Shown: positions 9,176 to 64,000 of the stretch, in pieces
Position numbering within the stretch: position 1 is the first letter of the stretch
How the letters are laid out: each line of letters begins with the position of its first letter
Source of the DNA: Owenia fusiformis
Taxonomy: Eukaryota > Annelida > Polychaeta > Sabellida > Oweniidae
Length of the DNA: 64,000 bases
Direction: 5' to 3'
Assembly: GCA_903813345.2 (NCBI GenBank)
Contig: CAIIXF020000008.1
Span: forward strand, 7,836,366-7,900,365
The notes under the pieces: model-generated
Told to the model about the DNA's origin: nothing
The model's database searches: none
Seen by the model: only the letters and a program-made list of their open reading frames with translations
Program-made: the position numbers and the translations under genes

Positions 9176-10257
9176 TGTTTTGGAGAACTACATCTCAGTG
9201 AAGTGATTCAGAAGAAGTACCTTGAAGAGTCCTTGCATCAGCGTCATTCACTTGCGCATGGAGTCCCATTGGTGTCGCCAAGTTTGAATTTCTCGTCCAA
9301 TAACGTGTAGCGCTCTCGACATACGTACGACTCCCTCGAAGTCTTTATCAACTTGTGATAGGTTAAGAAACTACACGTGACACAACTATCGAGTACTGGG
9401 TAATTGGGTATGTATTGGTTAAGATCATGGTTAAAGTGTAACATGAATTTATCATGTGAAGTAATTGTCAATGATAAGAGCTGGACCAACAATTGTTTCT
9501 TGCTTATCATGTATTAATGAAGTAATATTCTAACTGTTAAAAGTCTAACAGGTAAAACTTGATATTGAAAGTGACTCTAAAAATATGTTTTTGGGAGTGA
9601 AGATTGTCGCCGTTGTTTGGTTTCTCACGCACACCGTCTATTGCCTGTTGTTCTAACTAGACCATCCAAAGAGCATTTTTATCAAAAATACAATTTATTA
9701 AAAAGAATTCTAAATTGAAAATGTCAAAGAATATCAATCAAGTGTCGAATATCTCTAGTGGTGTAGCTGGGATAAAAAACATTTGGCGAGAAAATCAAAA
9801 AGGTGATGCAAAAGGCTAAATTTGAATAATTATATTTCTGTAAACTTTGGCGGCGCTGCCTCATGCCTAGCGACGCCTGTGCATGATCTCGTATAACTAA
9901 GTAATTCTGAGAAGGTTTGCAGTCATTTACATAAACGTATTGATCAATTTAAAGAACTTTTGCCCAACATAGTTTTTCGAGAACTGATACCTCAAAATCG
10001 GTAAGGGCAATAAAAGAACTGATAAAATATACTATTAAAGTTATTACTCAAACGAATAAGGTGTCCACACAAAATAGTATCCTTTGCAAAACAAAAAATT
10101 GAAGAAATAGTAAATTGTCAAGATTTGACCTAGATTTTTACATCTATTTCAACATTGTTTATTGATTTTGATCTAATTTCTTAAAAAGTAGTGAATTTCC
10201 TCGACTTACCCAAGAAGCTTGAACTGAAACATTAGAAGTGGTAAAAATCCTAATAGC
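9176..10257. other. Spacer upstream of the anosmin-like gene
   Basis: Probable promoter and 5' UTR side of the minus-strand anosmin-like gene. I see no convincing exon, RNA gene or clear core-promoter motif, only AT-rich unique sequence. Confidence 0.4.
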
Positions 10258-10838
10258 TAAGCCTAATCACCTTACGATAATTCTTTTTATGATAGAAGCA
10301 CCAAAATTGGCACAAGTGTAACTGAAGGCAATTGAAAAAAAATGGCTCGAGGCAGCAAGTGATCCGGAGCCTCGTTCTGAAAAAAATCCAAGATGGCCGC
10401 CAATACATATAGATTTTTAAGAAATTTGAATTATCTTTGAATTAATGTTGTATTTTAGCTCTAAACCAATTGTATTTGTTTAAGGGAATTCCAGACAGTT
10501 GCTTGTGATATAGGAACTACTTAACAATATATTTAACTATTAAAACGGGTGTTCAGCAAGGCTCAGTATTAAGCCTTGTACTATTTTATAAGCTTTTATT
10601 GAATAATACATATCAATATGAGAGTCACACATATGATTGAGAATAAATGCTGGATAGACTCTGCACTGAAGGGATTTTAAATATATTTTCTTTTGGAAAA
10701 AATCTCTAGCCATGTTAAAACATGGTATGTACATAGTCAAACGTGACATACATATAGTTAATCCTGGTCAAATACCAGTTCTTGCGGCTGACCAACCATT
10801 GTTTGCTTCCCTGAAAACCATTTTAAAATATATTATGA

Positions 10839-10987
10839 GGTTATATAATGGTTCTTTCTGTATATCGTGTTTATACTCGAGTGAGTATATGATATATTCA
10901 CAAGTGAGCGCAGCGAACGAGTGAATATATTATATTCTCACAAGAGTATAAAATGCACGATATACAGAATGAACCATTATATAATCT
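10839..10987. repeat. Nested hairpin element
   Basis: Arms about 10839-10896 and 10922-10987 pair (TTATATAATGGTTC with GAACCATTATATAA; TATATCGTG with CACGATATA) around a loop containing gagcgcagcgaacgag. It sits inside the larger TIR transposon, upstream of its pseudogene. Confidence 0.75.
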
Positions 10988-10992
10988 TATTA

Positions 10993-11336
10993 TGCCACTC
11001 TAAGTTCAATTACAGTTGATTCGAACACAATCATAACAGTTAAAAACCATAAAAATATCCCATAGCCAACTCAATAATGCTGATGTTGATCTCGAACCAT
11101 TTATGACATGGCTTGATTCTAGCAAATCATGCCGGAACCATTTATGACGTCACTTGATTCTAGGAAATCATGAACATTTTCATGATTTTTTATTCATTAG
11201 TTCCCAGAATGCACTTCTACAGTGGTATATGCTGGAGTGTATACAGAGGAGTTGTATACAATGTCGATATACCACTCTCCACTGTATATCGTTGTTATAG
11301 ACCCATGTTATACAACTGTAATTAGACTTAGAGTGG
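10993..11336. repeat. Second nested inverted-repeat element
   Basis: GCCACTCTAAGTTCAATTAC at the left is complementary, with mismatches, to TAATTAGACTTAGAGTGG near 11310-11336. Between them are a roughly 50-bp direct duplication (ACCATTTATGAC..TTGATTCTA, about 11097-11172) and a smaller palindrome at 11217-11290. Non-coding and nested in the TIR transposon. Confidence 0.55.
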
Positions 11337-11364
11337 TATAAACCCTGATACACATGGGGAATAT

Positions 11365-14315
11365 AAATACTTGATCATGTTTGGAGGTCTCCATATAATC
11401 GAAATGGCATTCCAGAAGGTGATTGGTGATTGGCTGACAGACAGCGGTTGGGTAAATGTAATTGCTCAGTCAAATACAGCATCAGTTGGTACTGCAGAGT
11501 CCTTCCTAAAGGGAAGCCATTTAACCAAGACTCGAAGAGCACGTTGGCAGCACTCCACATCCTAATGAAGAAAGCTTTCAACATATACCTAGCTGCTGGC
11601 GAACTCAGTGATGTATCTATCCTATCCCCTATCCTTTGAAGAATGGAAAAGGGAAGGGGAAGACAATTCCACCCATTTCAAATACTGGGCTATAACACAG
11701 CGCCTTGAAATGCTGTTTATGATCTTTCTTAGATCCCTGAGAAAAGCAGACTTTAAACTCTACATATCTGTTTAGACCAAGATGATGCCCTGGTTTTTTG
11801 CATTAGATCATACACACTATCCCAGATGGCTCCCAATACACCTAAGGGACATGGTCCAATTGGAGACAACTCACCCTGACCTGTATCAGCGTTTCAATGA
11901 AGGTCTCTTTACAGTTCAGAAGACACCTAGGTCATTCTCAACCATCCCTATAGACCAGGCACATGAGCAAATAATTCTCTGATTAAGGGTTCTGGTGGGG
12001 CTATAGGAATAACAGAGAATCCTACTGCAATGAAACGATGGATGATAGCTGGTCCTGCAATATCCCAGATCATCAAAGAGTTTGAAGAAGTCTCAAGTAT
12101 AGGAGACATGAAAGCCAACGAAGACTTTAGCCACCACGAGCAAACAGCAAGCATTCAACAGAAATTTAGAGATGATGTATTTGCTGTTGTGACTACTATT
12201 GATAAACTAGGCAATCCATTCCTTGTGTCAGGTGACGATGTATTTACTATTGACACAAAGGATGTTATATGTATCAGTAAGTGACACCATCAGAAGTATA
12301 GAAGACATTGGCAACCAAAGCTTCACTAAGTATACAACTGAACGTCTTGTGGAGAGAACTGAACCATTGGATACACCCATAAAACGCCACAAGATCGCAA
12401 TGTTGAGCAGCAAAATACCCAAAAGAACAAATCAGAAATCTCAAATTAAGAAATTGAGAAATGACTGTGATTTATTCTCCAAATTATACATCACATGCCA
12501 GACAAGAAACATTGATCTTGATGACTTTCTCATGCATGAGAACCAGGAGTATCCACCTTCACTGGCAAAGTATGGTGTCCTCAGAAATGGTGACAAATCA
12601 GAGCTATTTATTTGCATGGAGGATATTGCCCCTAGGGCAGGGGAAAAGGTAGGCCTGTTGCTGCTGAAATAATAGATGGTGCATGTTCAGTACACCTTCT
12701 AAAACTAACTACAGCAAAGACCTTTGAGGATTATGCCACTGATGTTTTCCTTCCCTACATCCAAGGTCAGCTGCAATATGTTGATCGCCTCGATATATTT
12801 TTGGGATGAGTACCTGACAAGGAGCCTGAAGACGATGACGAGACAAGCGTGGGAAGGGTGACAGAAGGATGACCTATCTTGGAAACACTGTGCCAAGAAA
12901 CTGGCAGTATTACTTGAGAGATGACTCCAACAAGCAAGAGATGTTTGGTATTTTAGCCTACAAACTATAAAGTCTTCCATTAGATGCATATAAACAAATT
13001 GTGACCACCATTGGTGAAAAGGTGATTTGCAATCCTGCAATTAGTGATACAAATGACTTGGAGCCATGTTCTCATGAAGAAGCAGATACCAAAATGTTTG
13101 TCCACATTGCCCATATGGCTAGAAGAGGGTTTGCCAGAATACTGATCAGATGCAATGATACTAATATAGTTGTCCTTGTCGGTATTAGCATATGGGTTGC
13201 ATTTGGAACTGGGAAAAACTAGGTATTTGGCTGCTCATGAGATGGCAAGAGCTCTTGGACCTACCAAATCTGAATGTTTCCCTGTTTTCCCTGTATTTAC
13301 TGGGTGTGATAGTACATCGTCATTCTTTGGCCATGGAAAAAAATAATGTTGGAGAGTATGGAATAAATATCCAGAAGTAACAGAAGCATTTCTCGCTTTA
13401 AAACAAACCCACATCACATAGCAGAAGAAGCTCTGTTTCTATTGGAACGTTTCACAAGCATTTTGAATTATTATTTATGGATTATGGCGATGGCTTTTTT
13501 GAATGGATGTTGACCCTTTGAAATGCCTATGGACTTGGAGACTGGATTTTATCTATCCCACATCATTTGAGACTGAATGCTCTATCTTGTATGAGTACTT
13601 GTATCTACAACTCTTTTTGATGTTATGAGTATTGGCTATCAATTTCTAATTTTTTCTTTAACATGTATTGTAATGACTTCAGTATGAATGAAATGTCCCT
13701 TGGTGTTCTGGTCTTGGATTGTGACATCGGTTCTTGAATGGTGGGGGAAAGGGGGTATTATACATTGTTTCTTTTCACGTTAGATCATGGTTTTAGGATA
13801 TATGGGGTTTGTTTTTCTTGACCGGTATGCACTTAGAGTTTGCTTTTTCTTGATGAGTTCCATTACAACTTTTGGTCCTTTCCCTTTGGCACTTGTGCTT
13901 AGATATTTGTCATTGTTCTCTATGACAGGACAAGTTCAACAACTGATATTAACTCAACCAGAAAATATCTTTTCACCAAGAAGGGAAGACAGATTGACGA
14001 GATACCTCCGACTAAGGCAGCTTTGGAGCAGCATATTAGGAGATCTGCCTTCACAGGAGGGATTGTTTGAGGCCAAATACTGGATCCTCGCCCAAGTGGT
14101 GTCCAGGATTATTTGAAGTTTGGCTCGAGGAGGATGATGATGATCACGTGTTTCCACTTTTTGGTCTACTCTTCAGCAAACGTCAATAGCATGCAGAGAA
14201 CTCATAAAGTGCCAATGCAGCAAGGGGTATCGTCCTTAGTATTGTTCATGTAAAAAAGCTGGCTGGGCAAAATGCACAGACCTTTGTAAGTGCAGTGGGC
14301 TTTGCACTGATTAGT
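11365..14315 (+). pseudogene. Decayed member of a multicopy uncharacterised family with Cys-rich C-terminus
   Basis: Plus-strand coding fragments in shifting frames read, in order: MFGGLHIIEMAFQKVIGDWL, GTAESFLKGSHLTKTRRAR, FFALDHTHYPRWLPIHLRDM, FSTIPIDQAHEQ, GGAIGITENPTAMKRWMIAG, then the open stretch 12223-12672 (HENQEYPPSLAKYGVLRNGD), an EEADTKMFVHI and IWVAFGTGK region near 13075-13215, IPPTKAALEQHIRRSAFTGG at 14005-14064, and CSCKKAGWAKCTDLCKCSG near 14240-14310. From memory this matches a family predicted repeatedly in cnidarian, mollusc, echinoderm and fish genomes. Its function is unknown to me. The tail resembles a CXC/tesmin-type metal-binding motif. At least five frameshifts, several stops and an insertion at about 13459-13906 show it is dead. 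Its place inside TIRs suggests it moves with, or was captured by, the element. Confidence 0.65.
13459..13906. other. Insertion splitting the pseudogene
   Basis: Family-like sequence stops at ERFTSI (about 13444-13461) and resumes with VLYDRTSS (about 13909-13935). The roughly 450 bp between has no similarity to the family and CATT occurs at both edges. It may be a small non-autonomous insertion or an unrecognised intron. No clean GT-AG pair was found. Confidence 0.4.
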
Positions 14316-14965
14316 GAGAGTAACAATAAAGGACAAAATATTTGAGATTTGAGAAAGATGGTGATCAAAAATGTAAAACATAGACAATTTATCAAACATA
14401 AACTGTGACAATTTATCAAACATAAATTGCCCCAGCATTGACATTTTCGCATTGTAGCACCATCTAACTGGTACTGTAACAATAACCCCCTTATTTTGGA
14501 TATGTGGCTGAATATATTCTCTTATACAAGTTGTCCAGTAGAAGTAAGAGATCTTATTATCCAATATTATGTAAGTACTCAAGTCTTTGGTCAACAATTT
14601 TTGATGAATAACAATATATGTCATTTATGAACTTAATAGTACAGGTCGTACTTCTGAACCTTGTTTTACGCCGTTTTACATTTGAAACTCAAGTTAAATG
14701 TCAGTTCATCAAAAAAGATTCATTTCAAAGCCACTTCTTGAGGTTTCTATGCAGTTTTCATTAATATGTAAGAGGATCTTGAGATTTTAATAGAAATCGA
14801 CAAAATCACAAACAGACTGGCGGCCATTTTGAATTTTTTCCAAAACGAGGCTCCGGATCACTTGCTGCCTCGAGCCATTTTTTTTCAATTACAATCAGCT
14901 ACACTTGTACCAATTTTGGTGCTTCTATCATAAAAAGAATTATTGGGAGGGTTTTTCAAGTGATT

Positions 14966-15438
14966 CAGCCTAACTATAAGGAACGAATATGTATTTCTCG
15001 GTCCTTTGGATCTAGATTTGGGTTTAAATTTAAAGATCGGTCATGGTCACCCGGGCGTAATTTCAAAATGTCCTAAGATTTTTAAAATATTTTAAATATT
15101 TTAATCAAGAACGCCACAACTTCCAAAACCCCTGACAATAAATGATATTATATAAAAACGGTGGCCATTTGAACGCAAATAAAAAACGAACATAGTTTCA
15201 CTGATCACGAAAACTAAAAACATCTCTCTCTCTCTCTCTATTACAATGACTAGATTTAAAACTAAAGGCTTGTACTCTTGGAAAAATAAAGTCACCAACG
15301 TACTATTTATGTATCATTAATGCCTGACTAAACAGGCATTGATGACTCTTGCTAATGACAGATAAAATGTAGCCACTAAGCTATATTAACCGGCAGTCAT
15401 AATGAAAATATTTAGGTCAAATATGGCTGAGCTATATA
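14966..15438. other. Inter-element spacer
   Basis: Unique AT-rich sequence with a short CT microsatellite at about 15224-15239 and a small GCCTGACTAAACAGGC hairpin near 15321. No supported exon. A 3' exon of the VWA/TSP1 gene could lie here but could not be identified. Confidence 0.35.
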
Positions 15439-16430
15439 CAGGGTGTCTCAAAAAAATGTACCCAAAAGTATATCAAGAGCACAGATAAACCAGTCAATAT
15501 TTCCAGACATTTTTCGCATGGTCATGTCATGGTCAGTTCATGGTCAAACATGAAAGTTTTCTCCCCAATACACCATTTTTATTTCAGTCTTATCTTTTTG
15601 ATGATTTGACCCTTTACTTTTTACACCACATAATCGATGTTACCTCATATTTCGATGACAGCCAGTATCCTTATTGCTACATTGTTCATCACATTTGATA
15701 ATAATTCCGGTGGAATGTTTTGGATTTCTCTTTGGATGTTGCCCTTAAGTTGTTCTAGGTCTTTTTGCTTGGAATGAGCATTAAACTCTCCTTCAAATAC
15801 CCACAGAGAAAGATGTTTGAGGATGACGATGGCAGACCAAACACAGATAATCAGGTGAATTATCGGTAAATGAGTCAGTAGTTACCTTCCAGAGTTAGGC
15901 AGGCTAGCTTGAACACCAAATGATATCCAAATGAAAACACAGTGGTCTCAAATTGATACACACAACAAGGGCTACACTAGAATCCCAACCAATGCAGTTC
16001 CTTGAACCTCTGACCTCTCTGTATAAGGAGGCTATAAGACATTGTGAGGGCCTCCCTATTAACCACATTTGACGGCCCATACTTTTTTCTATGAGGACCA
16101 TTTTTATGCTAAACCCATGTTAAGAGACCTAGAACAACTTAAGACTAGCATCCGAACAGAAATCAAAACATTCCATCAGAAATATCAAATGTGATGAACA
16201 ATGTAGTAGTAAGGATGCAGACTGTCATCGAAATATGAGGTTACATTGAATATGTTGTGTAAAAGGTAACGGGTTAAAGTATCAAAATGGCAAAACTGAA
16301 TTAAAAACTGTGTATATGGGAAAAAACTTTCATCTTTTATCTTCAAGACCATGCAAAAAATGACTGAAAATATTGGATTGGTTTGTCTATGATCTTGATA
16401 TACTTTTGGGTACATTTTTTGAGACACCCT
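15439..16430. mobile_element. Palindromic mariner derivative (two transposase 3' ends back to back)
   Basis: TIRs CAGGGTGTCTC..GTACCCAAAAGTATATCAAG and their complement bound about 990 bp, with TA at the insertion edge. The left arm, read on minus, encodes DLEQLKGNIQREIQNIP, then PPELLSNVMNNVAIRILAVI and a stop. The right arm, read on plus, encodes HFYAKPMLRDLEQLKTSI followed by RTEIKTFHQ. Both are the C-terminal end of a mariner-type transposase, pointing outward. The N-terminal two thirds and catalytic domain are absent, so it cannot transpose on its own. It lies 3' of the thrombospondin-repeat exon of the minus-strand gene. Confidence 0.8.
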
Positions 16431-16615: not shown

Positions 16616-19063
16616 CAAATCCATTGCTGTTGGCGATTCCACAGTTGGCTTTTCTGCATTCCACATCTTTCGAAACTGTCTCAGATTTGTCGCATGCTCC
16701 TGGGTACCGTGGGTCTGGTAGAGCAGTACGCGTGTGTGTAAACCGTATCGATAGAGGGCGCTGAGCGGTGCCGTCTGCTGGAATGGTACTGCAATTCGGT
16801 TTAGCACACGTGATGTTCGGTGATAATTGAGACCACTGACTCCAGGTTGACCACACGCATTGTGCTACAACAAAAATTATGTTGAAATGAAAGAAAATAC
16901 TCTAAAGCATATATATCAATTGTGTACCACCATGAATGTGGGGGTGTTTTGCCCTTTTCTTTTTTTGACATTTAGTGATAGCAAAACTCTCCCCACAAAT
17001 GTTAGCCATTCGAAATCTTGTAGTTGGACAAAATGGTGGACAATTTCAAGACCTAGATATAAATGCTAATAATAATTGCCGATATGAAGCATTGTTTCCA
17101 GTAACCAATCACTCTACAGTATTACATTGGGAAAAGTGTATTGTAAAAGAAAACAAGAGAATTGGTTTGGAAAATGCTGATATAAGATCTGATTTTCATC
17201 TTCAAATCATCAAGGTGTCCAACTACACAATTTGGAATAGGTTTCAGCTGTCGGTGAGGCTTGCCTTATCAAAGTCAAAAATTTAAGAAAAAGCAAACCG
17301 AACCCACATTTATGGGGGTACAAAATTGTGATACAAGATGCCCTTGACATTTTTAACCCACGCATGTGAATCACAAATCCAGCATCTTGAACCCAGCAGC
17401 TCTAAATTTCAAAGTTGACTTAAGGCGCAATAACACCTATGACATGTCCACTTGATATACATTACATAATATTATATGATGCAACTTTGATATTATTTCT
17501 GAATGTTATTCAACCTATTTTTGTAGAAAAATAATAAATTGTCGCACTTCAGAATGAAGACCGAGCGTGCGAAGATGAACATGCACCAATGGGGTTAAAT
17601 CTCGCACGCTGAATGGAATCTCAAGGAGTTCCATGGGACCTTATCCCACAATCCCATCACTCCCATGGGGCCTCATGGAACGCCATGGATCCCATGGAGC
17701 GAGTGCTATAGACCCCACATGTCGCACGCATTAAGTCTATGGAGGTCCCAAGGTACCCCATTGATGTACGTTGGACTAAAGTACTGATTACCTGGGCATT
17801 TCGTCATCAGTATATCCTGAAATGCATTCTCAATTCCCAATGCGCTATTGGCAATACGAACGTGTTCGTGCTTTGGCTCACTAACGATTTTGTGTGCCAT
17901 AATTTCACAGTCTCTCCAAGCTGCGCCCCCTTTCACATAGTACAGTTTAACACAATTGACATAAATTTCTACATCCGCATCTTTAAGATCTTTGACATAT
18001 TGATTTAATTCATCCAACCTATTTGGAATCACAGGTCCATAAGCATGGTATACTATGATCTTTTTAGCATTTTGGCTAAGACCGTATTTAGGACTAAAGG
18101 ACACCCTTAATGCAGCTCTAAACGCCAAATCCGTCCTCCGTGGCTTCTTTGAGCAGTTTTTTGTACCGTCTGTATGCATGTACATCGTTGTGTTAATGTA
18201 ATCCACAACCTCTTCAGTTGTCGTGAAGTTTGAGAAGTAGAAATTATGGAATGATGATTTGTCATATATAGTTAACAATGAAATTCTGTTTGAGAAGGGA
18301 TGTGTGGTGTTTAGTCCCAATGATTGGACGTTGTGTATCAAGGCTTTCCTTAGTTCAGTTTTTTCACTAGGAAGTATGTTACATGTCAAGTCTGCGATTA
18401 AAACCAAATTCAATCCACAATCTGGAACAAAAAATGCACAAAATGGAAGCATGTAATATTTAATACTATAACCTTTTACTTGTACATTATACTATTACTA
18501 TAATAATGTTGATTTGTTTTGTTGTGTAGTTTTAATTTATAATACATTTCAATGTCAACAAAAACAAAAATTCCAAAATGTTGAGTTCAAAACATCTATA
18601 TTTGTTTATGAGAACAAATATTAAAGATATATTCCAGAAGTTAATTAACTAGTCTAACTAACTATAATATATTATTTCATGACAACCTGACCTTTTTAAC
18701 ATCAGGATTCGCATAAAACAGGATGTTTACATGTCATGTTTAGTAAATCGAATCCTGGAATATTTGAGTCAGTCAGCACAATAGGCAATAAAACGGTAAA
18801 TAAAAGCTGTCCTAGAGCAAAATATACACTTACTTAGCCAGGCTGAATGTACCCCCAATACAAGAGTCGCAAGACCTGAAAGAAGATATCAACATCTGTA
18901 ATCAAATCATTCTAATTAATAATAACTGGAACACCATATAGATTGAAATTACATGTATAATGCCAATGTTGGTATAATGAATGAGCATAACCTGATAACA
19001 CGATCCATACAAATAATTCATCAAAATATATGTTTACTTACATATTGTTCTGATTGTGTTCAT
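16616..19063 (-). CDS. Secreted VWA plus thrombospondin type 1 repeat protein (3' end not found)
   Basis: Exons 19063-19042, 18875-18834, 18421-17792 and 16864-16616, all joined in phase 1. The first two join to MNTIRTICLATLVLGVHSA, a clear signal peptide; an in-frame TAA lies 12 nt upstream of the ATG. The third exon (210 codons) is a von Willebrand factor A domain: LNLVLIADLTCN, the helix RRTDLAFRAALR and KKIIVYHAYG. The fourth begins AQCVWSTWSQWSQ, the tryptophan ladder of a thrombospondin repeat, with later RTAL..C..C..C cysteines. VWA plus TSR is an extracellular adhesion architecture (compare coadhesin or TRAP-like proteins). The metal-site motif DxSxS is DLTCN and the usual TDG is replaced, so the metal site is probably degenerate. 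The exon ends at a good GT donor, so more exons should follow toward lower coordinates, where transposons lie. Confidence 0.75.
17560..17735. repeat. CCATGG-rich imperfect repeat in intron
   Basis: The intron after the VWA exon contains clustered CCATGG, CCCATGG and TCGCACGC blocks on both strands. It is probably a degenerate inverted-repeat element. No coding sense is supported past the donor at 17791. Confidence 0.4.
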
Positions 19064-23891: not shown

Positions 23892-38207
<14,316 letters not shown>

Positions 38208-51721: not shown

Positions 51722-54700
51722 TTATATAAACATGCAAAGCCTCACGAGATTTTGTTGAATTTTAGAAGAGAGGTTCTGAAGACGACATAGTCTGACGCTA
51801 TCCACCTGTCCTGCATTATAAACCCGATAGAGATGATAATTTTGCTTCTGTGTGTGTGCAAACATAACTTCCCGCTGTGTTATATCAAAATAGTTTTTCT
51901 TATCTTCCTTGGTGGCCTTCACTTCAATATAAATGTCTTCATATTCAGTTGGGTTTTTTGATATGATCCTAAAGTCATATGGCCAACCAGACTCTGATTC
52001 TTCATTGCACCATTCAACTGTCCAATCAGTGTTTTCATAAGTGCTCAATAGGAACTTATGTACAAGTTTTTCTCCCCATAGTCCAATTGCAGCGGCTAGT
52101 TCCTCTGCTTCCTCCACATCTTTTATGTCTTCAGGGGCCTCTTCTTTCTGTGCTTCATTGAGATCAAGGTCTTCATAGACATCCACAGACCCAGCTTCAG
52201 TCCATTCTGGTACATCTGCAACAAACAAATTTCATATTAAAAAGGAGTTTCAACAATATTGAAAAAGTTACTTTATTAAAGCATTGGTCACATTTGCTCT
52301 ATGTACATTTGTCATAGCTTCAAAATATCAATGTAGAAAATCGTCATCATATTGCTTATCTATGTTTTATGCTGCATACTTCTCTTGATTTTGGGAAGCT
52401 ATGGCCACTGTATGGTTGCTGTAGATCAAATGTGACTGAGGCTTATTATAAGATCAGTAAGATTTATATCAAGAATAAACTACTCAGGCAGTCTGCAATT
52501 TGGAATACATGTTTAGTTGCCATGAAACCTAGCTTAAAACTTTTCTTAAAATATTATGATAATTAAAATTAAATGCAATATCTACTATGAAGATGTATAG
52601 GAACTCACCCATATGACGCATTCTCTTAGTGGGTGGTTGGAAATCCACATTGGTTGTCTCCCCAGGGGCAAGGGTATATGGTGCCTCTTGATCTTCAGAA
52701 TATGGTCTTTTTCTGCCATGATCAGGATTCCTGTTCTCTCCTGGGGTAAGCCCTTTAGATGCCTCATGATCTTGAGAATATGGTCTTTTTTCGGTCTCCC
52801 CAGGGGCAAGAGTTGAGGATGCTTCTTGATCTAGAGAATGTGATCTATTTCTATCATGCTCAGAATTCCTAGTTTCATCATTCCGATGCACATCTACAGG
52901 TTCAGACTCTTCATCTATTACTGTTTGTTTATTCTGATTTTGAGCATTGTTTAAGTTTTCCTGTTGTTCAGCATTGTTAATTGTTAGTGGGATGTACTCC
53001 TCATCCTTTGTTGTAGTTGTATTGTTTCCATTAGCACTATCATCTTCAATGTCTTCACCAACCTTTGTATTTTCTTGAATTACTGGTTCGCTGATTGTCA
53101 TATCTCCATCATTATGTTTATTAGGCATTTCACCGACTTGGGGTTGTCGAGGTGGCCACTGGGTTAATTTGGGGTCTTTTTTGGCTGCTTCTGAAAAAAT
53201 GAAACATCTATTTATTATCTTCCCTCTGAAACATAGGCCTTATATGATATCATCAAATTACTTAATCACAATCTCTTTTTTCCTTGTCTTACTGAAGCAG
53301 ACTTAAAACAATGAGTTCATTAACAGATCTATAGGACATATGCATGTTCCTTCAGATATACAGTACCATCATTAAAATTATATTTATTCCTTAAAATATT
53401 ATAACATCATATTGTTAAAGTAGTGGAAATCAATTAAAACCCTTAAATTATGATACTTTCTCCCAACAGGCCCATTGTTTCATTTAAGAAAGTGCATAGA
53501 ATAACAACAGAAACAAATGCAAAGTCACATTTATTAATTTGTATCAAATCCACTTCGCTATTTCATTACATATATTCTCTCCAAATCTCTCTATCAATCT
53601 ATCAATGAAGTAAATGTACATAGGGATTCTGAAATATTGAGTGAACATCAAATTATACAGTGATTCAATGATCACATCCAGTTTACAATTTTTTTTCTAG
53701 ATTCACGATTGGTAAAATAATTCATTTTGCAACAATGGGACATGTTGGATTTAACTTTCATAACAGCTGAGATAATATATGATATATAGGCCTACCTGTC
53801 CCATCTCGTCCCTCCATACTAGGAGCCTTAGGTGGCCAGAAGGAAACAGAGCTGGTCATTGGACGGTTTTTCCGAACTGGCTCATTTTCATCAATTTCAC
53901 CCTCTACAATAGAACATGGTATTTATACTTGCATCAACTCGGGTCATAGTTTCTAATTTCAAGTTACAGAAATATTATGGATTCATTTGATTTTTGAATA
54001 ATGAAACAAATGAAATGCAGAATAATCATTGGATAAAAACATTGTTCAAGGATTTCTCTTAAAATAATCAAATCATTAACAAATTATAGTATTGCCTCTC
54101 ACTTTCTGCTTATTATGTTTGAACACTTTACCCAATGTTTAATGATTTATTTTAGTTGTAATTAATAATATAACTTGCCTTCAGGAACCCCCTCTTCTAT
54201 AACTGGTGGCTTGACCTCCCATTTGACCTCTGACTCTGGTAAAGGGTCAAGGTCATGTCTATCAATGACCTCCTGTATTGTACAAGGCGAGGTCTGGAGG
54301 ATTGAAGGCATCAATTCAACTAAGAAGTTTCTGAAACATAAATTTCCAGGTAAAATGTGCTTTTGAAAATGTGCTTTAAATTCCCTATTGCCAGGTTACA
54401 TTTGCAAGTCAAGGATTCTTTATATTATGTATCAAGGCCATCATAATTAAGGTCGTGCAAGGTCAAAGTTATAGATTAAGTCCACTAATGATAACAATAA
54501 ATACTTTGAATTTGCTCTTATTTGAGCTGATAAACTGACTTCTGATGTGATACAGGGATAACTGCATCGCCATGTACATGATTTCCTGATGTGATTTCTG
54601 GTGAATTGTCAATTTTGAATTCGCTAATTCTATATCAGTGACTGTAGTTTTGAATCAATAAAAATATGACCAAATACAGATATTTTCCACCGCCCAAAAA

Positions 54701-58895: not shown

Positions 58896-59075
58896 CTGCA
58901 AACAAACAACACATGGGTGTCATTCAACAAAACGTTGAAGTATGATTTATTACTTTCATGGTTTTTACTTTATAATTATTACCACCTTGCCGGGCTATGG
59001 CCCTTGGTCCAATATTGCACTATATTGCCCTTTGAAATGACGTTATTGTACTAATCTCATTCATGAAATTCCTAT
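58896..59075. other. Intron 5' of the last visible NO VEIN-like exon
   Basis: It begins with a good acceptor (TTTGTTTGCAG on minus) for exon 58895-58714. Exon phase requires an upstream coding exon, so this is an intron, not a promoter. No other feature. Confidence 0.6.
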
Positions 59076-62000
59076 ATAGCGCAGTCAGATGTCCAGAAAT
59101 GAGCCCTTTATAGTTCGACTTTTTCAGGAAAGCAACAAACTTGGCACAGTTGTAGAAACACTTGATCTGAGTGGAAAATGATTTCGGGGCAAGTGATCCG
59201 GAGTGGTCTTCATGGATTTTTTAGTCTCTGACCCCAACCCCTATCAGGCGGGGAGGGGGTACATTATAAAAAATAAATAAGAATGGTTTTGAAGTAAATT
59301 GCTCTGAGCCTTGAAATTGAGACAAACCGATTGTAGAAGTGGTGTTTAGTGAGGAAAATACATTTTGACCCAATTATCTAGCGTGAATTCATATTTTAAA
59401 GGGTCAAATATGGGACATCAAGTACTGTATTTCAAGAATGTGATGTCTGATCATCTTGGAAAAATTCATACTAATAGGGGTATAGGTGTTCATCACAAAT
59501 ATAGAATATGGCTTGGGTAGCTCATGTATTTTTTGAGATAAAAATTATCGAAATTTGAATTTTTAAGCCCTTGCGACCTAGGGGTAACCTTATTCTACCT
59601 TAATAATTTTTAAGATATGCAATGTATGGGTCTCATATGAGCTCAAAATGGTGCATTGAGTCTTGTTTTGTCATATTATTCCTAATTGGATTGAAAAATT
59701 ATTGGAACTTTTCAAAAAAAAAAAAATGTCATTATCGCTTCTGAAGGGCCAGGGCCCAGGGGTAACCATATTTTACCTTGATAACTTTCAAGGTTTGTAA
59801 TATATGTATCTCAAATTAGCTCAAGATGGTGCATATAGTTCTGTTAAATCATAATACCTCCAATAAGATGTAGAAAATGATTGGGCATTTCTTAAAATTT
59901 GACATTTTCATTTTAGCTTATGATGGCCTGGGGGGGCTTATTTAATCTTGAACTTTTCTTAATTATGAGACGTATGCATCTCAAATGAGCTTAAAATTGT
60001 GTCATATACTCTTGTTTTGTCATATTATTCCTTAGGAGATGTAAAAAATAATGGAAATTTGAAAAATGACATTTTTAGCTTTTGACAGGTCAGAGGTGAT
60101 TTTATCATATATTACCATAATATAGAAGCAAAGGATGGAGTGAGTTTAGTAGCCCCGTCCCCATGACCATGCCATTGGCAGCTTGGGTCTTAAAGCATTT
60201 ATGACCCAAGCTGCAATAAACCATGCTGACCTATTTTCAACCAATCAGTGAGCTTGAAGGAACAAGTGCTAAATGCGTGTACATTAATGATGCGATTTCG
60301 TCAGAGAAAATGACCATATACGTCCTTATTTCGACAACAAACTCTGATTAGCGCGGTGAGTTCAGAGATTTATTGAAAACTGATAGAGCGAAGACGAAGC
60401 TCTCTTTTGAGAAGGAAAGTCGAATGAATGCAAAGGGTAGTAAGTCCAGTCACCTTAGCCTGATGGGGGGAGGGGGGGGGGGGGTTAAGGTGAGCTGCTT
60501 CTGTCAAGGATTCTGTAAGTGAATAATGACAGTCAATGATTGGGCACAAGAATGCCAAATGTTATTAATTTTCAAGATAAAATGATCTCAAAATGGGGAA
60601 AATAGTCTGTTTTTCACTTTATTCCTACTGAGATAATGATTAACAACAATTAGAAAACTCAGTGAGACATTTAAATCTCAATCCATTTATTCCATTTTAG
60701 CACTACCAATAGCAGTAGAATACAGATGTAACATCACATCCAATGATTGTATGAGAAATGGGGAGGATTAAACTTTGGTCATAGGCAGGTAGATATTGAT
60801 ATGTTTTCTCCCTTACCATTTGCTATCCAAATTGACTTTTTCAGTTTTTAACATCACATATATGCCAGGATAACCACATCAGAATTAAATGTAAGGAGTA
60901 TTATTCTTTCTCTTGAAGCCCATGATTGAAGCAGTCTAACTGAAAATATTGAGAAATATCCTTGAATCTGCTTCTTCTTAAGAGCAAGGGTGATGGCAGA
61001 ACCTCACTGTTGGGCTAAAACATTGCATTGCCTCCTTAATTTATGTGGTCACTATCTTCTTTCCATCCATTTCAAGGGTTTCAGTTTCCTCCTTAGACTA
61101 TCCTTGTTCCAGTTCCACAAGTCTCTCTAGTGCTATTTTAAAGTTGCAACAATTAGTGCAAAGGGGCCATTCAACGATCATGGACCAGTGTCAAAATATA
61201 TTCAAGTTTGGATATTTCATCAAGACTAACATATATGTTTATTTTTTTCCAAAGAAACCCCCTGGATGAACATTATTTCAGCTGATTCCTCTTGAGCTGT
61301 TTTCCTTCCAGGCATCAAAACTGAAACCCTGGAGGAAGATGGCAAGAAGATTGTGACCTCACAATGAGGTAATGCAATATCTTAGCCCGATAGTGAAGTA
61401 TCTGCCATCACCATCATGCCAAAGACTGCTTCTGTCATGACCTAATAAGAATCATAGTCAATGCAGTTGATTTTGATGTGGTTTAAACTGGCAGTAACTT
61501 GTGCTGAAAATGTCAATTTGGATTGCATATGGCTTATGGTGAGGGGAAATTCCTCCAGAACGTAGATATTTCAAGGCCACTTGGCCATGAACGAAGTTTA
61601 GCCCTTACCATTTTTCATACAATCTCTAGATGCATTCTGCTACTACTCTTAGTCAACTGATTTGCAGGAATAGAAGGTGTACCCAGAGGTTACGCAAGTG
61701 TTCTTAAGCTTTAAATCTTTTTTGATACCCTAAAATTAGAAGACTAGAGTCCTTATTCATTCTGATGCATTCTTAGCCACAGTTTCTATCACCACATGAA
61801 TGTGGCTGGCCTACTCCCACTGCTGATACTGAGGCCACAACATAAAATGTAGGTCATGGGGTAGATACCTGTGTCAAGAGAACAGATGCAAATGTTTGAA
61901 AGCAGATCTGATTTGCTCTGAGCTATGTAGCTGTAGGAGAGACTGTCAGAATCCATAAATTGTGACTCCTTTGATTAGGTTTTATAGATTTGGATTATAT

Positions 62001-62436
62001 ACTCAAAAATGATAATATTCAGAATCTTTACAATGCTACTACTCGTGCGTGTATGAACTGGACTTATCAAACATTTTCATATCTTAGAAAATGTTCACTT
62101 ATATAAAACTAGATAGTATTGCCATTGGTACTAGAAAGGAATAAATGGCTGTTGAGGTTCATTTTTTATAACTGTTAATCATTATTGTATATCTCAGTAG
62201 GAATAATATGACAAAACTAGACTATATTCACTATTTTGAGCTCATTTGAGTAGACAATATGACATATTATCGTATGATCTGTAAAATGAAGCCTTCTGAT
62301 TGGTCAATTCTTGTGCTGTACCAATCTGTATTGGTACTGAGAGTGTCCCCATTGATCATCTCCGTCGCAATACAGAAAATATAGGTACGGAGGGAACAAT
62401 CTCAGTAGCAATTCAGAGGATCACACGATAAAAACA

Positions 62437-62573
62437 TTATTGAATGATTTGAAGTGCAATACAGGATATATTCTGTCTCGATATTCTGTATTGGCACTCG
62501 ACTTCGTCTCGTTCCAATACGGAATTTCTCGAACAGAATATATCCTGTATTGCACTTCAAATCATTCAATAAC
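62437..62573. repeat. Long perfect-like hairpin inside the foldback element
   Basis: ATTGAATGATTTGAAGTGCA followed by ATACAGGATATATTCTGT pairs with the complementary ACAGAATATATCCTGTAT and TGCACTTCAAATCATTCAAT. The loop contains GCACTCGACTTCGTCTCG. It is probably a nested MITE. Confidence 0.85.
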
Positions 62574-62687
62574 TTATATCTTTGTTTAAATTTTTAAGGT
62601 AAAATTAGGTCATTCCTGACCTATCATAAACTACACTACCAACATGACCAATCTCAAACTGCATCAAACAGCATGGTTTCATAAACA

Positions 62688-62860
62688 GTGCTGTAAATAC
62701 AGTACTGAACACAGCTGTTTTCTAAAATAGTACTGAGCTGTAAAAACAGTACTGTACTACGCTGTCCAAAACAGATGGTGTTAGAATAGCATTGTACATT
62801 GCTATATAGTGCAGTACTCTGACTGCACTGTTCAGTACTGTTTACAGCGCTGCAAGAAGA
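62688..62860. repeat. ACAGTACTG / CAGTACTG cluster
   Basis: At least seven copies of (A)CAGTACTG or one-base variants within 170 bp, alternating with ACAGC(T)G. Each core (AGTACT) is itself palindromic. Non-coding. Confidence 0.6.
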
Positions 62861-64000
62861 TGTTGCGGATTGGGGGTGTAATATGAAAATGTAATTTTCT
62901 TATAATTTCCAATCATTTTTTCACTCCTTGGGAATGATATGATAAAACAGGACTAAATATACCATCTTAAGCTCATTTGAGGTGACTTATGTCTCATATT
63001 TAGAAAATTATTAAGGTAAAATAAGGTTACCCAAGGGCCATCAAGAGCTTAAGTGAAAATTTTGATTTTTTAGATATAACCCATCATTTTCTATATCTTA
63101 TTGGAAGAAGTATGATAAAACAGAACTATATGCAACATCTTGAGCTAATTTGAGATGCATATATTACATATCTGGGAAATTATTAGGGTAAAATATGGTT
63201 ACCCCTGGCCCTTTAGAACCGAAAATGAAAATTTGATTTTTTTTTTATTTCCAATACTTTTTTTACATCTAATTAGGAATAATATGACAAAACAATACTT
63301 AATGCAACATTTAGAATTCATATGAGGCCCAAACATCGCGTATCTTAAAAATTATTAAGGTAAAATAAGGTCACCCCTAGGCCGCAAGGGCTTTAATATC
63401 CAAATTTCGATAATTTATTTCTCAAAGAATACATGAGCTACACAAGCCATATATCATATGAGGGATTAACACCTATATCTCTATTAGTATGAATTTTTTC
63501 AGGATGATCAGACATCACATTCTTGAAATACAGTACTTGATGTCCTATATTTGACCCTTTGAAAGATGAATTCACGCTAGATAATTGGGTTAAAATGTAT
63601 TTTCCTTCCTAAACACCACTTCTAAAATAGGTTTTTCTCAATTTCCAGGCTCAAAGCAATGACCAAATGAAGTCATTTAAAGAAATATACTTTACAACTA
63701 TTTTTATTTATTTTATTATAATATACCCCCTCCCCGCCTGATAGGGGTGGGGGTCAGAGGCTTAAAATCCATGAAGACCACTCCGAATCACTTGCCCCGA
63801 AATCATTTTTCATTCAGATCATATGTTTCTACAACTGTGCCAAGTTTGTTGCTTTCCTGAAAAAGTCGAACTACCAAAGGGACATCTGACTGCGCTAATA
63901 CAAAAGTCAAGCAGGGATCCTACTATCATAATATCATTGTGGGGTGTGATTTTGTTGCTCAGTTTTGTGACACTATTTAGTCTTTACCATTTGACAATTC

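Follow-up and report, generated by a model that had tools for sequence, protein, structure and literature searches.

The transposon lineage AcademX, reportedly defined by Kojima in 2020, carries an XPG-type nuclease. The superfamily to which it belongs, Academ, is listed among those with DDD/E transposases (PMC9587614), and the duplications left at the target site are described as 9 or 10 bp long in AcademH and 3 or 4 bp long in AcademX, a difference that seems to be tied to the encoded helicase and nuclease (PMC10045372). A library of mollusc transposons, for which DDE profiles were used, is described as holding 100 curated Academ elements with a mean length of 5565 bp, and as recording an amplification in bivalves (PMC10294476). 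Here we describe two elements in a 64,000-nucleotide stretch of DNA from the annelid Owenia fusiformis (contig CAIIXF020000008.1, positions 7,836,366 to 7,900,365; hereafter the window, within which all positions are given). Element 1 is best placed at 10254-14976 and element 2 at 59077-63897; both have inverted ends, are flanked by 3-bp target-site duplications and contain broken remains of the same gene family, which ends in a cysteine-rich (CXC) tail and presumably belongs to the multicopy animal proteins that have no assigned function. They are probably two dead, diverged cut-and-paste DNA transposons of the Academ superfamily, of the AcademX type.

The first-pass annotation of this DNA had proposed inverted ends of about 150 bp around a decayed gene, and for element 1 this is confirmed. 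Without gaps, 10270-10402 and 14818-14950 are 91% complementary over 133 nt, and with gaps allowed 10248-10433 aligns to 14982-14788 at a score of 229, with no score above 42 among 200 shuffles; the inverted ends are real and far above chance. The gapped alignment overshoots the chosen border by six bases on both sides, which is taken as the effect of a near-palindromic duplication together with chance. Over offsets of -6 to +6 around the terminal TAG, the flanks hold a single 3-bp repeat, TAA, and because this sole repeat sits exactly at the TAG...CTA termini the borders are best set at 10254-14976. The pairing of TAG and TAA was picked as the candidate before element 2 was known. The borders first proposed, 10258-14965, are slightly internal to these and enclose both the cysteine tail and the FFALDHTHYPRWLPIHLRDM segment. 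The features of the ends are as follows.

10251-10253, no strand: left target-site duplication TAA of element 1, from the border scan
10254-10433, plus strand: left inverted end, beginning TAGCTAAGCC and well conserved to about 10402
10355-10369, plus strand: 15-mer GCAAGTGATCCGGAG in the left end, common to all four ends of the two elements, in one of them with one mismatch
14788-14976, minus strand: right inverted end, with the 15-mer at 14851-14865
14977-14979, no strand: right target-site duplication TAA, from the border scan

When inverted repeats were listed across the whole window, with arms of at least 45 nt and partners within 12 kb, 19 pairs were obtained, and one set, at 59099-63885, surrounds translated pieces that resemble the gene family of element 1. 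The ends of this second element are about 1 kb long (59036-60075 against 63938-62886, with 881 of 1009 aligned columns identical, gaps aside), and its termini are again TAG...CTA. Its flanks, scanned over the same offsets, contain a single 3-bp repeat, ATA, exactly at the TAG terminus; a 4-bp repeat is also present at offset +6, inside the conserved end, and is taken as chance. Since equal 3-mers occur at only 2.1% of random position pairs in the window, chance is an unlikely explanation for finding a 3-bp repeat at the same terminus twice. Element 2 comprises the following features.

59074-59076, no strand: left target-site duplication ATA, from the border scan
59077-60075, plus strand: left inverted end, about 1 kb, with the 15-mer at 59189-59203
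60674-61087, minus strand: broken fragment of the gene family (ETLEMDGKKIVTT, EEADSRIF, NSDVVIL, IIGCDVTS)
61318-61955, plus strand: broken fragment of the gene family (ETLEEDGKKIVTS, VDFDVV, LGHERSLAL, VYPEVTQVFLSFK), with the cysteine tail at 61833-61955
62886-63897, minus strand: right inverted end, with the 15-mer, carrying one mismatch, at 63781-63795
63898-63900, no strand: right target-site duplication ATA, from the border scan

The ends of the two elements were then compared with each other. Allowing up to three mismatches, the 15-mer GCAAGTGATCCGGAG has exactly four sites in the window, one in each end of each element; shuffles gave a mean of 0.5 sites, and none of 100 reached four. 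The left ends of both elements span 63 nt from TTGGCACA through the end of the 15-mer, and in all four cross-element alignments of the ends the score was reached by none of 1000 shuffles. As judged from these alignments the ends of elements 1 and 2 are homologous. One could suppose that a host gene or retropseudogene had come to be flanked by inverted repeats through chance or secondary insertions, inverted repeats being as common in the window as the 19 pairs suggest; such an origin is contradicted by element 2 and is highly improbable, given that both copies lie between homologous ends that share the 15-mer, with 3-bp duplications around them.

The presence of the gene family in element 2 was assessed in several ways. 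Plain tblastn with a composite translation of the element 1 gene returned one weak match in element 2 (E 0.037). Because the pieces had been picked by eye, the composite was also compared with the entire window, element 1 being masked, by a scan that tolerates frameshifts. On each strand the top match falls in element 2, with scores of 100 (minus) and 80 (plus), and both matches end close together in the query, at residues 651 and 659; the next-best places score 68 on the plus strand and 58 on the minus strand. A score of 100 was reached by none of 130 shuffled queries and a score of 80 by four of them (maximum 83), an earlier set of 12 shuffled queries having reached at most 78. By score alone the plus-strand match would be weak; that it shares its place and query region with the other match makes it convincing. 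Stitching by eye gives the two fragments of element 2 identities of 35% and 27% with element 1, figures that are biased by the stitching; the cysteine tail on the plus strand reads KCRSWGRYLCQENRCKCLKADLICSELCSCRRDC. Within element 2 the gene region is present twice at 60674-61955, in opposite orientation and head to head inside the 1-kb ends, with an inverted match between 61041-61087 and 61318-61364; this arrangement may have been formed by an inverted internal duplication.

Homologous paired ends thus surround both copies of the gene, and it follows that the gene is part of the transposon. Element 1 is almost certainly a terminal inverted repeat transposon with the CXC-tailed gene as its own, and that gene is very likely to be the transposase and not a fixed companion. 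The proposal that further copies of the family be checked for the same ends gave a positive result for the only other copy found in this one window, element 2. Of the accompanying suggestion, that the family would be the transposase or a passenger of an undescribed superfamily, the link to a transposon stands by virtue of element 2; the word “undescribed” is not supported, as the features fit AcademX, a lineage already described.

When 11350-14400 is read in three frames, the gene in element 1 is recognisable from about 11380 to 14311, its coding scattered across all three and interrupted by several stops.

10832-10993, no strand: palindromic stretch in the expected place of the gene's 5' half, probably a nested insertion
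10990-11341, no strand: internal stretch with 29-nt inverted ends, resembling a miniature inverted-repeat transposable element; probably nested
11380-12281, plus strand: gene part 1 (GGLHIIEM ... FFALDHTHYPRWLPIHLRDM ... NNSLIKGSGGAIGITENP, with GGAIGITENP also read), frames broken, matching the C-terminal half of DUF6589 below the Pfam cut-off
12271-12806, plus strand: gene part 2, the middle region (VSVSDTIRSIEDIGNQ ... DRLDIFLG)
12842-13453, plus strand: gene part 3 (HEEAD, DTN, GCD...GHGKK), motif order like that of FEN/XPG nucleases, with no profile support
13454-13923, plus strand: gap of about 470 bp between parts 3 and 4 in which no family-like coding was seen; an intron, an insertion or decay
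13924-14108, plus strand: gene part 4 (DRTSSTTDINSTRKYLFTKKGRQ ... GGIV*GQILDPRPS), also read as DRTSS...GQILDPRPS
14189-14311, plus strand: cysteine-rich (CXC) tail, with one internal stop

This copy is dead twice over, with its 5' half unrecognisable and its frames broken, and for these reasons it holds no complete enzyme. Adjoining it, at 15451-16420, lies a fold-back structure about 1 kb long whose inverted arms measure 45, 164 and 67 nt.

The state of both copies bears on the question of whether an unrelated transposase might mobilise the ends, with the CXC-tailed gene carried as cargo. Both copies are broken and a complete transposase is seen in neither; in element 1, inspection of six frames by eye revealed no coding from the left end to position 11380. 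A passenger is nonetheless quite unlikely, as the same gene family occurs in two elements that have clearly diverged and whose ends are homologous, as would be expected of an element's own gene, and as the gene has a weakly DUF6589-like stretch. Furthermore, no other transposase-like frame was seen by eye in the interior of either element, no family search having been made on the other frames.

If the gene is the transposase, its catalytic core would be the DUF6589-like stretch in part 1. In a Pfam search at E up to 10, part 1 gave a single match, DUF6589 (PF20231; E 0.011, 14.9 bits), which pairs residues 52-242 of a 243-residue composite with positions 222-398 of the 410 in the profile; no counterpart to the first half of the profile was found in element 1. 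The core segment alone scores 12.9 bits (E 0.043), and one reversed and four shuffled versions of it gave no match. We take DUF6589 to be the Academ transposase core. A DDE core may underlie this sub-threshold match, and the stretch that would hold the first catalytic D is unrecognisable in both copies.

Part 3 follows a motif order derived from FEN1, which is matched by five of five FEN1 chains and by none of 20000 shuffles. It resembles FEN1/XPG proteins (for example 1a76, 1b43 and 3ory) in the order and spacing of E-A-[DQ], D-x-[DN] and G-x-D...G-x-G-x-K, and differs in detail, with H-E-E-A in element 1 where FEN1 has E-x-E-A, and DTN where FEN1 has D-x-D. The motifs are what point to a putative nuclease here.

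The AcademX reading follows from the 3-bp duplications, the weak DUF6589-like match and the FEN/XPG-like motif order, all of which fit it. Terminal inverted repeats are present in both elements (2 of 2), as are duplications of the 3 or 4 bp expected (TAA and ATA, 2 of 2), and the large gene has nuclease-like motifs. The elements, at 4.7-4.8 kb, are also close to the mean length reported for the curated mollusc set (PMC10294476). They differ from AcademX in that both copies are dead and the gene is unrecognisable in its N-terminal half. Two other superfamilies were considered and dropped. The termini of EnSpm/CACTA elements begin with CAC, and both elements here have TAG termini; PIF/Harbinger duplications are of the TWA type, which TAA fits and ATA does not.

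Several observations weigh against this reading, in which the assignment to AcademX was made from published descriptions. The DUF6589 score is below the Pfam gathering cut-off (14.9 vs 27 bits); an 829-residue composite gave no DUF6589 match at E up to 1, and neither did the single-frame pieces (none of five in one scan at E up to 1, none of four in another). The FEN1 motif pattern was composed after the sequence had been seen. In a HMMER search with a five-chain FEN1 profile the gene was missing from the matches at E up to 1000, and at a wide-open threshold 264 of 501 controls (one reversed, 500 shuffled) were reported; because the gene goes unreported while shuffled controls reach 9.0 bits, the best control score, it does no better than shuffles with this profile, and hhalign against FEN1 gave a probability of 0.5%. 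Searches of PDB and Pfam returned nothing relevant to a nuclease fold, and the structure predicted for the piece at 12842-13219, with one stop read as Q, has a predicted local distance difference test score (pLDDT) of 40 and is uninformative. Compared alone, the cysteine tails of the two elements show a similarity that 20 of 2000 shuffles also reached.

The same results can be read as signs of a superfamily not yet described, with a catalytic core of its own unrelated to Academ. In the libraries searched no match exceeded a curated cut-off, the PDB matches were at chance level, DUF6589 is named in Pfam as of “unknown function”, and no mention of it was found in the literature searched. Missing matches are what would be expected of single, broken sequences, and the 3-bp duplications and nuclease-like motifs match the AcademX description as far as it is set out in PMC10045372, so that an undescribed superfamily seems unlikely. 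It is to a similar degree doubtful that the elements represent a new superfamily, or a deep lineage alongside Academ that has no name yet, which would combine a divergent DUF6589-like core, a FEN/XPG-like nuclease part and a CXC tail with recognition of a conserved 15-bp motif about 100 bp inside the ends, a 3-bp stagger and ends that vary in one genome from 150 bp to 1 kb. We prefer the assignment to AcademX, and regard the observation as sound and its explanation as probably ordinary, to which the second element and the shared end motif are the additions.

In an intact AcademX-type element of this kind, one protein would bind the motif shared by the inverted ends. Its DDE core, of RNase H fold, would excise the element and insert it at a staggered cut in the target, giving rise to 3-bp duplications, and its C-terminal nuclease-like and cysteine-rich parts may process or bind DNA. 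The shared end motif GCAAGTGATCCGGAG is a concrete candidate for the site bound by the cysteine tail. A gene family without assigned function, weakly similar to DUF6589, is now placed between defined transposon ends flanked by 3-bp duplications, and should this be true genome-wide, annotators could class the family as transposon-derived.

Other matches to the gene were few. PDB matches to a baseplate protein (E 0.77) and to fibre proteins (E 0.14 or worse) were judged to be chance, as was an NCBIfam match to an adhesin autotransporter (E 0.28), and the one protein scanned against PHROGs had no match. Among viral contigs, one pattern match encoded no relative and three further pattern scans were empty; bacterial and archaeal genomes gave three pattern matches, tblastn at E up to 1 against the collected loci found no related frame, and plasmids gave none by pattern. 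XPG_I was found in neither of two bacterial genomes searched, which is uninformative here. A 15-mer from the end of element 1 occurs in 19 viral contigs, which was set aside as chance, the longest blastn match of the ends to the collected loci being 22 nt (E up to 0.01), and a 16-mer around the shared motif has matches in 8 further viral contigs.

Elsewhere in the window, an inverted repeat at 1714-2347 has arms of 212 nt that are 85% complementary and spaced by 210 nt, and adjacent inverted-repeat structures at 35282-36679 and 36688-37491 have arms of up to 227 nt that are 74-95% complementary. On the minus strand, 17706-18491 encodes a von Willebrand factor A domain (E 2.8e-05) and 51722-52231 a NOV_C (NO VEIN C-terminal) domain (E 1e-20), each probably part of a host gene. 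An open frame at 32183-32569 encodes a Mos1-type HTH_48 domain (E 4.5e-07) and is a mariner-like fragment.

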